A stretch of DNA of 64,000 nt, taken from contig JAHJUE010000030.1 in NCBI GenBank assembly GCA_018829205.1, positions 62,001-126,000 of the forward strand, written 5' to 3'. Numbering within the stretch: the first letter of the stretch is position 1; every line of letters starts with the position of its first letter. The translations under genes were made by a program, and so were the position numbers. This stretch comes from Bacteroidota bacterium (GTDB lineage: Bacteria > Bacteroidota > Ignavibacteria > Ignavibacteriales > Melioribacteraceae). Below are positions 8,918 through 55,046 of the stretch, one piece after another. Under the pieces are notes generated by a model. That model was not told the DNA's origin and did no database searches. It saw nothing but the letters and a program-made list of their open reading frames with translations.

Positions 8918-10158
8918 AAAAGAATATTGTTGCCGGATTGGATTTGGGAACCACGAAAGTTTGCGCTGTAATTGCTGAACGTGACGGAGATAAAGCTAAT
9001 ATTCTAGGTTTCGGTGTTGCTCCTTCCGAAGGATTAAATAGAGGCCTGGTAGCTAACATCGCTAAAACCGCCGAAGCTGTTAAAGAAGCTATGAATATTG
9101 CGTGCAACCGTGCGGGAATTGATCTGAAAGAAGTTAATGTCGGTGTAGCAGGCGAACATATTTCAAGTTTACGTCATAGAAATTATGTTACTATTAGCAG
9201 TCCCGATAAAGAAATTTCAAAGGATGATTTGGAAAGATTAAAAAACGACGTGCATACAATTCGTATTCCTTCGGACAGACAAATACTTCACATAATTCCC
9301 GAAGAATTCTTTGTCGATTATCAGGGTGGCATTGAAAACCCAATTGGAATGTGCGGATCTAGACTTGAGGCTGTTAATCACGTTGTGCTTGCGTCAATCC
9401 CGGCCATTCAAAACATAAACAAATCCGTTGAAAGAGCCGGATACAAAGTCAACGATTATGTGCTTCAGCCTATTGCTTCAAGTTTATCGGTGCTCGAAGA
9501 AAATGAAATGGATTTGGGTGTAGTTCTAATCGACATCGGAGGAGGAACTACAGATGTGGCAATCTATCATGATAAAAGTATTAAACATACGAAGGTAATT
9601 GGCGTCGCCGGAAATCAGGTAACAAACGACATTCGTGAATCGTTAGGAATAGTTACTAACGAAGCTGAAAAGCTTAAAAAAGAATACGGATACGCAATGG
9701 AAGAAGCTATCATTAAAGATGAAGACATTTATATAAAAGGTGTAGGAGCCAGAGGCAATATTAAAATACCGGTCACGCTGTTAACTCAAATAATTAGCGT
9801 GAGAATGAGAGAACTGTTTACACTAATTGATAACGAATTAAGACACACAGGATTTAAAAATAAAATTAAAGCCGGAATAGTATTAACAGGCGGCGGGGCA
9901 TTGCTGAAAGGATGTACCGAATTAGCAGAAGAAGTTTTCGGACTTCCTACAAGAATTGGTGTTCCTCTTGAACTGGGAACCGGTTTATCTACTGAAATTG
10001 AAAGTCCCGAGTTTGCGACTGTTGCCGGACTAATTAAAGGTATACCGGGTACAACTTCACATGAGGCAATATTAACAAGCAAAGAAAAAAAGAAAGCCGG
10101 TAAAGCATCGGTTTCTAAATTTTTTAAAAGAATACAAGAATTTTTTGACGAATTATAA
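8914..10158 (+). CDS. ftsA: Cell division protein FtsA (actin-like membrane tether for FtsZ)
   Basis: Actin-family ATPase (414 aa) that anchors FtsZ to the membrane. Phosphate-1 motif AGLDLGTTKVCAV at the N-terminus, phosphate-2 motif VLIDIGGGTTDVAIY in the middle, adenosine motif GIVLTGGGALLKG near residue 327, so motif order is canonical. The FtsA-specific subdomain 1C lies between phosphate 1 and 2. The C-terminal FKRIQEFFDEL is an amphipathic helix that fits the membrane-targeting sequence. Overlaps ftsQ by ATGA and is followed by ftsZ. Confidence 0.96.
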   Translation: MKKNIVAGLDLGTTKVCAVIAERDGDKANILGFGVAPSEGLNRGLVANIAKTAEAVKEAMNIACNRAGIDLKEVNVGVAGEHISSLRHRNYVTISSPDKEISKDDLERLKNDVHTIRIPSDRQILHIIPEEFFVDYQGGIENPIGMCGSRLEAVNHVVLASIPAIQNINKSVERAGYKVNDYVLQPIASSLSVLEENEMDLGVVLIDIGGGTTDVAIYHDKSIKHTKVIGVAGNQVTNDIRESLGIVTNEAEKLKKEYGYAMEEAIIKDEDIYIKGVGARGNIKIPVTLLTQIISVRMRELFTLIDNELRHTGFKNKIKAGIVLTGGGALLKGCTELAEEVFGLPTRIGVPLELGTGLSTEIESPEFATVAGLIKGIPGTTSHEAILTSKEKKKAGKASVSKFFKRIQEFFDEL

Positions 10159-51475: not shown

Positions 51476-52333
51476 ATGGCCAATTTCAAGTTTAGCGATT
51501 TAAAAAAATCCTCGGTTTATATAACTCCGAATTTTCCGGTAATCGAGACGAAAAGATATAAGTTTAAGATACAGACAGTTATTTCGCTGATTGTTTTATA
51601 TTCATTGTTCGTTTCAGTTCTGGTTATTACCATTCTTGCGTTAACGCCGGCAAAACAATTTATATTCGTATTTGAAAACGAAAAACTTATAGAGCAGGCC
51701 GAGCATATAAAAATGCTTGAAGAACGATTGGTTTTTCTTTCGAATGAATTAAATCATCTTGCTTCTAAAAATAAGAAACTGCAGTATGCAATGATGCTGG
51801 CAACCGGCGACTCCATTGATACTACCTCCGCTATTTATGATTCGCTGAAACACGAAACAAGGCAAAATCTTCCTTACGGCGGAAATATTCTTCATGTATT
51901 TACAATGTTTTGGGAAAAATTCTTTTCTGATGATTCTTCGCAAATGAAAATTTATTTCATTAAACCGTTAAGCGGATTTATTACAAGAGAATTTGAACCA
52001 GAAAACGGACATATGGGAATTGACTTCTCGGTTAAAACTGGAACACCCGTTGTTGCTTCTGCCGGAGGTATAATAATATTTGCCGGTACAACCGTTGATT
52101 ATGGTAATTCGGTAATTATTGAACATAATAACGGTTATATTACAAAGTATTTGCATTGCTCATCCTTATTAAAAAAAGAACGAGAAGTAGTTGAGCAGGG
52201 TGAAATTCTTGCTCTTAGCGGTAATACAGGCATTAAAACAACAGGTCCTCATCTGCACTTTGAAATTTGGAAAAACGGTAAACCGATTGAACCTAAAAAA
52301 ATATTAATAAATTTAAATTCTGAGGAAAAATGA
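51476..52333 (+). CDS. M23 (LytM) family membrane-anchored peptidase
   Basis: 285 aa. One transmembrane segment at about 37-60, a coiled coil at about 70-105 (EQAEHIKMLEERLVFLSNELN), then a periplasmic LytM domain. The zinc ligands are present: His179 and Asp183 in HMGID, and His259 and His261 in HLHF, so it should be an active peptidoglycan endopeptidase. In the same direction follow an actin-like gene, a TPR gene and a bactofilin gene; M23 peptidases and bactofilins are linked in cell-shape control in several bacteria (family knowledge). Confidence 0.9.
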   Translation: MANFKFSDLKKSSVYITPNFPVIETKRYKFKIQTVISLIVLYSLFVSVLVITILALTPAKQFIFVFENEKLIEQAEHIKMLEERLVFLSNELNHLASKNKKLQYAMMLATGDSIDTTSAIYDSLKHETRQNLPYGGNILHVFTMFWEKFFSDDSSQMKIYFIKPLSGFITREFEPENGHMGIDFSVKTGTPVVASAGGIIIFAGTTVDYGNSVIIEHNNGYITKYLHCSSLLKKEREVVEQGEILALSGNTGIKTTGPHLHFEIWKNGKPIEPKKILINLNSEEK

Positions 52334-52458
52334 GAATAAATAAAATCACGTTTACATTTATTTTTAATAAAATATAAATTGGATTTTATTTCTATTTATC
52401 AGTTTTTTTCATAGTTTCATAATAAAAATTGAAATAAACAAGTATAGGAGAAGTGCAG

Positions 52459-53490
52459 ATGGAAAGTTATCTATTCCCCAGTATTATTGAAAGTAATAAT
52501 TACGAAATTAGAAATGTTGCTTCAGATTTGCTTCACGGATTAAAATTTTATGAGGACGATCTGGGGTATATTATAGGTTATTTGGCTCTTTCGGAAGGAA
52601 TTGCGCCCGGTAAAGCAATTAATAGTTTTCCGGATGATTTAGATTATAAACTGCTTGCAAAAGCCGCCCTTCTGTTAAGTTATGCGAAAAATGATTCTCC
52701 TAAAAATTTAGTAACAGGCTTTCCTTATTCCATTTATCATGTGAATAAAAGCAAAGCGGAAGATTTATTAAACGGTACGCACCAAATTACTTTTGATCCG
52801 GCTCCTTTCGAAAAAGCGGGTCTTACCCAAATGATTACAACAAAAGTATCTAGCGTTGAAGTAATTCCTGAAATAGAAGCATGCGCGATTGCAGCGAGAA
52901 AAGGGGATTTAAAAAAAGAAGGTAACTTTTTCATGGTAAGCATCGGTTACGGTACCTTGGAAGCATGTTTAATTACCGATAAAGGTTTGGTGTATAGAAC
53001 AATTACAAGTCTTGTCGGATTAAATTACGCTATCAATATTGCCATAAAAGAAATTTCAAAATCATTTTATTTAGGGTTAAGAACCGAACATCAGTTTGAC
53101 GTAGCGTTTAAAGAAGGAAAAATAATACTTAACAGACAGGAACTTGACATAACTCAAATCAGAAAACGCTGCCTGCAGAGATACTTTACGGATGTAATCT
53201 CTCCTTATCTTAAAAATGCATGGAAAGATGATGACTTTAAAAACACCAAATCATTACTTCTAACCGGCGGCGGATCCTTATATGGCGATCTTGTTGATTG
53301 CTTCAAAAAAGATTTCGATTTCTTAAATGTTCAGGTTGTTCCAAATCCTTTAACTTTTGCCAGCGAAGGTTATTGTATCAGATCGCTTGATAATTCTAAC
53401 GGTGATAAAGATGCTGCTCTTGGAATGGATATAGGAAACTCAACTACAGTTGTTACTTTATTTCCTAAAAAAACGGATGCAGTGAATTAA
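52459..53490 (+). CDS. Actin-like (ASKHA) protein with circularly permuted motif order
   Basis: 343 aa from ATG 52459 (AGGAG at 52446-52450, 8-base spacing; GTG 52453 is too close). Its motifs fit the ParM/MreB fold but in rotated order. It starts MESYLFPSIIES, which in MreB/ParM follows the phosphate-1 hairpin. Next come GYIIGYLAL at about 36-44, GFPYSIYHVNK at 87-97 and VIPEIEACAIAA. A phosphate-2-like segment is MVSIGYGTLEACLI at 159-172, with Ser161 where the acidic residue is expected. The adenosine motif LLLTGGGSLYG is at 266-276. The phosphate-1-like LGMDIGNSTTVVTLF lies at 321-335, eight residues from the end. Function unknown; permutation is inferred from motifs alone. Confidence 0.72.
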   Translation: MESYLFPSIIESNNYEIRNVASDLLHGLKFYEDDLGYIIGYLALSEGIAPGKAINSFPDDLDYKLLAKAALLLSYAKNDSPKNLVTGFPYSIYHVNKSKAEDLLNGTHQITFDPAPFEKAGLTQMITTKVSSVEVIPEIEACAIAARKGDLKKEGNFFMVSIGYGTLEACLITDKGLVYRTITSLVGLNYAINIAIKEISKSFYLGLRTEHQFDVAFKEGKIILNRQELDITQIRKRCLQRYFTDVISPYLKNAWKDDDFKNTKSLLLTGGGSLYGDLVDCFKKDFDFLNVQVVPNPLTFASEGYCIRSLDNSNGDKDAALGMDIGNSTTVVTLFPKKTDAVN

Positions 53491-53511: not shown

Positions 53512-54645
53512 ATGCAAATCCTAAATAAGTTAAGAAATTATTTCGGTCTTAAAATTATCGGCAAATCAATTAATGATAATGTTGATGTTTTAATAGCGCT
53601 CGGGCAAAAATATTTTAATCAAGGTAATTTTGTTCAATCTCAATTTTTTTTTGGTAAAGCGCTTAAACTTAATCCCGAAAATGTTGACTACCTGAATCTA
53701 TACGGACAGGCGCTGCATAAAAACAATCAGATTGAGTTAGCCGTTACTATTTTCAGAAAAGCTATTAACAACAGCCCAAGTGATGTTCGGGCATATAAAA
53801 ACTTGGGCAGTATTTATTTAGCTCAATCGGAACCCAGACTTGCGATAGAATTATATTCAGAGCTGCTAAAGGTTAACCCCTTATTTGGCGAGGGATATTA
53901 TTTACTCGGAATCATATATTATACCCTGCTTAATGATCAGGAAAGCGCAATTAACTATTTCAAAAAAGCGATTAACTTTGATCCTTTGAATTACCAGGCT
54001 TATGTATATTTAGGTGATATTGAGTACAACAATAAACATTATGACCAGGCATTAATATATTATCAGAAAGCGGTAAAGGTTAATAATAAAGCGGAAGAAC
54101 CGTTTTTTAAACTCGGACTGCTGTATGAAGAAAAGAAAAATGAGAATACCGCTTTTAATTATTTTATGAGAGTTCTTCAATTAAATGAAAAACATGAAAA
54201 AGCTCTTTATAAAATTGGATTGTATTATGATAATAAAGGGAATAAAGATCTTGCGATTGATTACTATAAAAAAGTAGAAAAAGTAAACCATGACAATCCG
54301 GAAGTTCTTTTTAATATCGGCGCGGCTTATTTAAAAATCGATAAACTTGATTTGGCAAGATCATACCTGCAAAGATCCGTGAAAAACCCAAAGTTAGCTC
54401 GCGAATCAAAAATTCAGCTTGCCGGTATATTAGGTCACGAAGAGAAATTTAATGAACAAATTGAACTTCTTAATTCTATTCATGATAAAAGTCAAAACAA
54501 TAAGGTTATATTATCAATGCTTGCTAATGCATACGGCGAAACCCATCAGTCTGAAAAAGAAATGGAATGTTATATCGAACTTTCCAAACAAGGGGATAGC
54601 GACGCAATTAAGTGGTTAAAAAACAAGAATGTTTCTATTGAGTAA
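53512..54645 (+). CDS. Tetratricopeptide repeat protein
   Basis: 377 aa, made mostly of about nine TPR units from residue 27 on (for example ALGQKYFNQGNFVQSQFFFGKALKLNPEN, AYVYLGDIEYNNKHYDQALIYYQKAVKVN, ALYKIGLYYDNKGNKDLAIDYYKKVEKVN in shortened form). No signal peptide, so cytoplasmic. It starts 21 bases after the actin-like gene and ends 26 bases before the bactofilin gene. A scaffold role linking these is an inference. Confidence 0.88.
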   Translation: MQILNKLRNYFGLKIIGKSINDNVDVLIALGQKYFNQGNFVQSQFFFGKALKLNPENVDYLNLYGQALHKNNQIELAVTIFRKAINNSPSDVRAYKNLGSIYLAQSEPRLAIELYSELLKVNPLFGEGYYLLGIIYYTLLNDQESAINYFKKAINFDPLNYQAYVYLGDIEYNNKHYDQALIYYQKAVKVNNKAEEPFFKLGLLYEEKKNENTAFNYFMRVLQLNEKHEKALYKIGLYYDNKGNKDLAIDYYKKVEKVNHDNPEVLFNIGAAYLKIDKLDLARSYLQRSVKNPKLARESKIQLAGILGHEEKFNEQIELLNSIHDKSQNNKVILSMLANAYGETHQSEKEMECYIELSKQGDSDAIKWLKNKNVSIE

Positions 54646-54671: not shown

Positions 54672-55046
54672 ATGGCAAAAAACAATAAAGAATATTCCTC
54701 TCCCGAAGATGTAAGCATTTTGAGCAGGGGAATAAAAATTGAAGGAAATATTTTTAGCGAAGGCAATATTAGAATTGACGGTAAAGTCACTGGAAACGTG
54801 GAAACAAGCAGTAATCTTACCCTTGGTGAGCATTCTGATTTAAACGGGGAAATTAAAGCTAAAAATATTACAATAAGCGGTAAAGTTGAAGGAACATTGT
54901 TTACCTCGGAAAAATTGGTTCTTGAATCAAAATCATTAGTTATTGGCGATATTTCATGCAAAATTTTAGTCGTTGAATCCGGCGCGAAATTTAACGGCAA
55001 CAGCAGAATGGGAGATCAACAAACCGCTTCAATTCAAAGCCCTTAA
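54672..55046 (+). CDS. Bactofilin
   Basis: 124 aa polymerising beta-helix protein. Regular hydrophobic/Gly periodicity of the DUF583 domain: IKIEGNIFSEGNIRIDGKVTG, LTLGEHSDLNGEIKAKNI, ISGKVEGTLF, LVIGDISCKILVVESGAKFNG, flanked by short polar tails. Bactofilins form membrane-associated filaments guiding cell-wall enzymes. Its stop shares a base with the next start (TAATG), tying it to the ATP synthase genes. Confidence 0.92.
   Translation: MAKNNKEYSSPEDVSILSRGIKIEGNIFSEGNIRIDGKVTGNVETSSNLTLGEHSDLNGEIKAKNITISGKVEGTLFTSEKLVLESKSLVIGDISCKILVVESGAKFNGNSRMGDQQTASIQSP

Follow-up and report, generated by a model that had tools for sequence, protein, structure and literature searches.

The gene at positions 52459..53490 of the window (the whole 64,000-nucleotide stretch of DNA that was analysed) encodes an actin-like protein that is circularly permuted, a description supported by the order of its motifs, its fit to family profiles, the points at which structural matches to it begin and the effect of an in-silico deletion. 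To our knowledge, the actin-fold proteins known so far begin with phosphate 1; the protein in question is an actin homologue by fold and by profile and departs from this defining motif order. It is probably a permuted ParM/Alp actin, with its phosphate-1 hairpin docked in cis, of a family whose members would usually be partnered by a tailed bactofilin in a scaffold concerned with cell wall or shape. The features of the locus are as follows.

51476..52333, + strand: M23 peptidase, upstream neighbour; a homologue is also upstream in L043/L006 and L044/L005
52446..52450, + strand: likely ribosome-binding site AGGAG, 8 nt 5' of the ATG
52459..53490, + strand: circularly permuted actin-like protein, 343 aa, ATG at 52459
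52462..52479, + strand: N-terminal strand, residues 2-7 (DSSP E2-7 in the predicted model), interpreted as the counterpart of the strand after the phosphate-1 hairpin of canonical actins
52870..52872, + strand: E138, matching the Glu of the Hsp70 INEP motif (alignment; invariant in 39/39)
52939..52956, + strand: phosphate-2 motif SIGYGT, residues 161-166, with Ser for the acidic residue (GYG in 39/39)
53257..53280, + strand: adenosine motif LLTGGGSL, residues 267-274 (GGG in 40/40)
53383..53418, + strand: linker, residues 309-320, from the old C-terminal helix to the moved hairpin (length constancy)
53416..53460, + strand: phosphate-1 hairpin, strands 320-325 and 329-334, with GMDIGNSTT at 322-330 (model and alignment)
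53512..54645, + strand: TPR protein, downstream neighbour; in L043/L006 and L044/L005 a homologue likewise separates the actin gene from the bactofilin gene
54672..55046, + strand: bactofilin, 124 aa, ordinary short type ending ASIQSP (PF04519, 95.2 bits)

The open reading frame, its coordinates and its motifs were recovered as given in the original prediction, including LGMDIGNSTTVVTLF at residues 321-335 (53419-53463); the GMDIGNSTT motif stops 13 residues short of the C-terminus. The Pfam profile ALP_N (PF17989) recognised the protein at 35.9 bits against a cut-off of 26.3 and covered residues 3-138, corresponding to profile positions 18-145 of 148, so that positions 1-17, where phosphate 1 presumably sits in the actin superfamily, were unmatched. 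The same profile matched all 11 of the family members tested at E<=0.01. Two further Pfam profiles, MreB_Mbl (20.3 bits, cut-off 27) and MreB-like_C, stayed below their cut-offs, NCBIfam gave weak MreB and PRTRC_D matches only, far below cut-off, and a single PHROGs family was matched, the phage partition protein PHROG 691, at 71.2 bits.

The homologue set consisted of 43 distinct ORFs from Ignavibacteria, Rhodothermia and other genomes of the Bacteroidota group, 40 of them, the window's own included, with an intact C-terminus; of 45 candidate rows, three at contig ends (L033, L102 and L108) and two that partly duplicate the window gene and L006 (L113 and L125) were dropped to reach the 40. 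The phosphate-1 hairpin, instead of standing at the start of the fold, is C-terminal in all 40: the pattern G-x-D-x-G-N-x-x-T was found near the C-terminus of each, with a single occurrence, and the remaining three of the 43 break off at contig ends ahead of the motif. The survey of orthologues called for in the original prediction thus found the motif order conserved, and an orthologue with a second, N-terminal phosphate-1 motif, which would have spoken against permutation, was found nowhere among the 40. In the alignment of the 40 genes, G322, D324, G326, N327 and T330 are invariant, as are G270-G272 of the adenosine motif (40/40 rows), and P7 and S8 at the end of the N-terminal strand are invariant in 16/16 rows. 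The linker from residue 305 to G322 varies in sequence and measures 15-17 residues in all 38 near-full-length rows, among which the lowest pairwise identity is 34%. The earlier claim that no start had been missed was extended from one locus to many, since about 400 nt upstream, read in three forward frames, carried no phosphate-1-like motif at any of the 38 loci checked. At one locus (L091) the open frame already begins 85 codons before the likely start, and 58 residues run from the phosphate-1 motif to the end.

It had been proposed that the re-circularised order would be that of a normal ParM/MreB-like protein, and this agrees with the finding that ALP_N and PHROG 691 match from the N-terminus of the profile only after the segment has been moved. 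With residues 317-343 placed at the front, ALP_N matched from position 1 and its score rose from 35.9 to 41.1 bits. Five shuffles of the moved segment scored 36.9-38.3 bits, the match starting at position 16 in four cases and at position 8 in the fifth, and therefore the motif is not needed for about 1-2 of the 5 additional bits. For PHROG 691 (329 positions) three family members were tried; the native proteins start at positions 25, 27 and 52 and the rearranged forms at 5 or 6, and the window protein scored 71.2 bits before and 73.4 bits after rearrangement (70.7 for one shuffle), L056 66.1 and 74.3 bits, and L048 77.9 and 93.1 bits. When a profile was built from 11 rearranged sequences, its first residues aligned with the N-terminal phosphate-1 motif of Hsp70 in three of the four alignments shown, the phosphate-1 piece by itself scoring only -0.2 to 4.5 bits. 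The comparison of native and re-circularised profiles suggested earlier came out divided: the N-terminal match was regained, but rearranging the 11 sequences brought no general score gain against the sequences of solved structures (PDB). From native to rearranged, Dh-cParM1 went from 19.2 to 19.1 bits, MreB (7zpt) from 17.7 to 16.8, BiP (6ha7) from 18.3 to 18.5 and DnaK (8w1m) from 16.6 to 18.2; a match of a rearranged profile to pCBH ParM at 2.7e-6 came from 16 rows and is not comparable with the 11-row profile.

The actin (ASKHA) fold was found for the window protein by an AlphaFold2 model (8 rows; pLDDT 81.4, pTM 0.85), by Foldseek and by a second structural aligner. Foldseek matched the model to pCBH ParM (6ixw) at 2.0e-15 and to Ta0583 (2fsj) at 5.5e-14 (TM 0.68/0.72), the second aligner gave Z 23.9 for Dh-cParM1 (8x1i) and 23.3 for Ta0583, and the best solved relatives of the model are ParM, Ta0583 and MreB. 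In the structure alignments, residue 1 of the model falls on approximately residue 18-30 of ParM, Ta0583, Alp7A, MreB and MamK, and a start near residue 20 of these chains is what would be expected had the first hairpin been removed from the N-terminus. The same alignments start later in CorM (63) and BeeR (60). They end at model residue 310-319, leaving the moved hairpin itself unaligned.

Phosphate-1, phosphate-2 and adenosine motifs are all present in the family, the second of them without its acidic residue. The missing acid, reported before for Ser161 of the window protein, proved to be a family-wide property: position 161, which we take to be acidic in other superfamily members, is Ser in 35, Gly in 3 and Asn in 1 of 39 sequences, and acidic in none. 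The accompanying argument that PE in place of PQ hints at lost hydrolysis had to be given up, since E138 is invariant (39/39) and aligns with the Glu of Hsp70 INEP. The window protein and its family probably bind nucleotide, and the loss of the phosphate-2 acid suggests that hydrolysis is slow or absent; the prediction of weak or no hydrolysis accordingly stands on the Asp-to-Ser change in phosphate 2 as its sole basis.

The gene order in the window is M23 peptidase, permuted actin, TPR protein, bactofilin and then, as judged by eye, ATP synthase genes, the bactofilin at 54672..55046 being the only one matched in the window's genome. Downstream of 31 of the 40 distinct permuted-actin genes, within 1.21 kb and on the same strand, a bactofilin gene was found, in 23 of the 31 cases at most 101 nt away (measured to the stop-to-stop frame); the loci are related, so that these counts are not independent. 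Pfam PF04519 confirmed the bactofilin at all four linked neighbours tested (43-80 bits, cut-off 27.9). The original prediction had not included this link. All nine loci without an adjacent bactofilin belong to two genera (g93 and g126), and the eight of them present on the tree (38 rows) form two separate supported clades. A bactofilin was found in 36 of 38 relatives, and also in nine of the ten g93 and g126 genomes searched, where none ends in Trp or Phe. Being near-universal in the relatives, bactofilin as such is therefore unspecific; what is specific is its tailed form with an aromatic end. In G014 and G037, two relatives that carry the permuted actin, there are two bactofilins each, one of them beside it. 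At L010, a partial permuted actin is adjoined by a bactofilin without an aromatic end, and an M23-peptidase-like frame lies just downstream.

The last residue of the linked bactofilins is Trp in 24 of the 31 and Phe in another 3 (27/31 together; for example L058-L060, L041, L047 and L056), at the tip of tails that are variable and share little sequence; the four without such an end are the window's, those of its two closest relatives, which likewise lie behind a TPR gene, and that of L010. The corresponding figures for unlinked bactofilins are 0/74 for Trp and 2/74 for Phe (Fisher p about 1e-18, kinship ignored), the 74 distinct sequences being the sum of 28, 39 and 7 from three samplings, with L186 and L196 left out as weak Pfam matches unrecognised by the bactofilin profile. 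The variable tail with its Trp or Phe tip is likely to be a C-terminal docking peptide. In genus g117, the permuted actin of L058-L060 lies between a divergent aminotransferase gene and the bactofilin, which is followed by a transporter gene (by eye), and in three genomes of the same genus without a permuted-actin match (G114, G381 and G412) the bactofilin stands alone between the same flanks. These actin-less bactofilins end in ELR, QNGES and KVSSF, as against KLW or RLW beside the permuted actin. The terminal Trp is thus missing in all three syntenic actin-less bactofilins (L183, L184 and L185; L184 ends in Phe), and since the interval is the same and Trp occurs only with the actin, the terminal Trp appears coupled to the actin gene, with the caveat that the bactofilins of L183 and L184 look diverged in other respects too. 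The bactofilin of the window is of the ordinary type and lies behind a TPR gene, so the tail model is not directly applicable to the window. Because the tail is absent from the window's lineage and no bactofilin matched in g93 or g126 ends in Trp or Phe, the actin must also have a role independent of the tail.

Taken together, we favour as the probable reading that a ParM/Alp-type actin homologue has been circularly permuted, its new ends lying between the phosphate-1 hairpin and the strand that follows it. On its short linker of near-constant length, the hairpin would fold back in cis and complete the first sheet beside the new N-terminal strand, thereby supplying the invariant Asp, Asn and Thr of an otherwise ordinary nucleotide site. 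Motif order, profile fit and fold come here from sequence and prediction, and from these we infer docking geometry and nucleotide binding. With the phosphate-2 acid missing, hydrolysis may be slow or absent and the nucleotide-bound state long-lived. In most lineages the Trp or Phe tip of the bactofilin tail would dock on the permuted actin, and the two proteins may form a scaffold for cell-wall enzymes, an M23 peptidase gene being upstream in the window. For the lineage of the window, with its ordinary bactofilin, contact with the actin, if any, would be made by another route. Partner peptides dock on other actin homologues in this manner, namely ParR on ParM, FtsZ on FtsA and PilN on PilM. 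This resemblance, together with the phosphate-2 acid missing in 39/39, speaks also for a non-polymerising nucleotide-binding switch or adaptor, like FtsA or PilM, which would leave bactofilin as the sole filament and is compatible with the permutation; the closest solved relatives of the permuted actin are, however, filament formers, and we regard this alternative as possible but rather unlikely. More tentative, and in our estimation unlikely, is a two-polymer cytoskeleton in which the hairpin would act as a releasable latch, in cis or exchanged, gating nucleotide binding and assembly, with the filament tied to bactofilin by the aromatic tip of the tail.

The placement of the hairpin was addressed by removing residues 317-343 in silico (7 rows), upon which mean pLDDT was 74.9 and pTM fell from 0.85 to 0.72. 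Residues 1-10 dropped from pLDDT 75 to 23 and strand 2-7 was gone; the phosphate-2 block 161-170 fell from 88 to 72 and block 261-270, at the start of the adenosine motif, from 93 to 83. Since confidence falls over most blocks and rises in a few (31-50 and 201-230), the drops at 161-170 and 261-270 are weak evidence, and that the hairpin touches the phosphate-2 and adenosine loops is accordingly put forward as a possibility derived from this deletion. Loss of the N-terminal strand is, in these models, the only specific effect. In canonical actins, the second strand of the phosphate-1 hairpin is paired with the strand that comes next in the chain, and the loss of strand 2-7 on deletion suggests that the hairpin is the partner of strand 2-7 in the full model. 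The C-terminal hairpin thus most likely docks onto its own chain, in cis, to restore a normal actin site, for which sequence and prediction give good support. A hairpin that is terminal and carried on a linker of variable sequence could alternatively dock in trans, so that subunits swap phosphate-1 hairpins to give strand-swapped filaments with the nucleotide site across subunits, and such exchange is compatible with a prediction made on the monomer. Against this, the monomer model places the hairpin with fair confidence (pLDDT 84 and 81 for the blocks of 321-340), its removal costs a strand of the same chain, and a linker length held at 15-17 residues despite varied sequence is expected for a cis route of fixed length; docking in trans is therefore considered improbable.

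The distribution of the permuted actin is patchy, as judged from counts in several samples, each of which includes the window's own genome. Of 38 near relatives, 4 carry a homologue. In a sample of the phylum, the family's own profile matched 28 of 395 genomes, comprising 22 genomes with near-full-length genes (24 in total), one with a contig-end fragment and five with weak matches of other actins. Within the class of G178, 31 of 244 genomes gave permuted-actin matches, of which a few are partial, and within the window's own class 6 of 294 did, one with a fragment. Named records with homologues are from Melioribacteraceae, Ignavibacteriaceae and two Bacteroidetes MAGs. The genome G178 belongs to Salinibacter ruber DSM 13855 (class Rhodothermia according to NCBI), since its second contig, 35,505 bases long, is 100% identical to NC_007678 over the 8,000 bases that were compared; this named cultured strain has two permuted-actin paralogues (L056 and L057), each followed by its own Trp-ended bactofilin. 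A gene that by eye is ATP synthase beta-like stands about 5 kb away from L056, and the window copy likewise lies near ATP synthase genes. A PF17989 search of the 395 phylum genomes gave 12 matches in 11 genomes, all permuted-family genes with matches starting at profile position 15-21; this search missed many members found by the family's own profile and is an insensitive test for canonical actins. Weak matches over 131-276 or 257-309 were dropped from the family as other actin-fold proteins, which we take to be FtsA-like and MamK-like. Two genomes of another family in the phylum carry actin homologues of canonical order (L035 and L036), presumably MamK-like.

The best family profiles, ALP_N and that of a phage partition protein, would fit a DNA-segregating ParM/Alp protein in which the permutation is of no consequence and the neighbours are irrelevant. 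No direct repeats were present in the 191 bases around the gene start (52280-52470), tblastn against 72,556 plasmid and 50,697 phage records matched no relative at E<=0.01, and a bactofilin adjoins in 31/40, all of which argue against this role and make it very improbable. Although one sequence alone could mislead, it is hardly credible that there is no permutation and that the protein is an ordinary actin without phosphate 1, because the missed start or split gene is ruled out by motif-free upstream frames at 38/38 loci, the chance C-terminal motif by conservation in 40/40 intact homologues, never twice and never upstream, and shuffled segments fail to restore the ALP_N match from profile position 1.

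The permuted actin shares with ParM/Alp proteins (PF17989; 6ixw, 8x1i, 2fsj) the fold from residue 1 to about 312-319 (Z 22-24), the phosphate-2-like and adenosine motifs in order and an ALP_N score above cut-off. Unlike them, it has a C-terminal phosphate-1 hairpin, lacks the phosphate-2 acid, is chromosomal and has bactofilin as its usual neighbour. With MreB it has the actin fold in common, and its neighbours in the window (M23 peptidase and bactofilin) are wall-related, but it scores below the MreB_Mbl cut-off (20.3 against 27). Furthermore, a separate gene in the window's genome matches MreB_Mbl at 465 bits, and the permuted actin is therefore no replacement of MreB. Bactofilin and M23 peptidase genes are a known association, and the window, in the order M23, (actin), TPR and bactofilin, is similar to such loci with the permuted actin as an added member; most permuted-actin lineages differ from them in the tailed bactofilin ending in Trp or Phe. 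Few proteins have been studied as intensively as those with the actin fold. A conserved natural permutation shows that a break inside the nucleotide site is tolerated and that this arrangement persists over deep divergence (down to 34% identity). The permuted actin offers a system for asking in what way the hairpin links nucleotide to assembly and which sites of an actin fold accept new termini, and in its link with tailed bactofilins two bacterial cytoskeletons meet at a point that can be tested directly.

No description of a permuted actin homologue was found among the best matches in the open-access literature. According to the portion of PMC2430557 available, cpRAS is a circularly permuted RAS-like GTPase of eukaryotes and, like the permuted actin, a natural permutation of a nucleotide-binding domain with a scattered distribution; the permuted actin differs in being bacterial and of the actin/Hsp70 superfamily, the fold of cpRAS being another. 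In the retrieved text of PMC4471445, circular permutation refers to PilN/PilO. The opening part of PMC7203096 held no permutation passage, its full text having one or two mentions, the searchable portion of PMC12270681 gave no match for permutation, and in that of PMC12667903 the search matched an author name alone.

Two minor features of the window may be added. Another actin-fold protein, encoded at 9421-9957, was matched by the MreB_Mbl profile at 55 bits, and we assume it to be FtsA-like. An inverted repeat at 52338-52391, with 22-nt arms that are 82% complementary, lies between the M23 peptidase gene and the permuted actin gene and may be terminator-like or a chance AT-rich hairpin.
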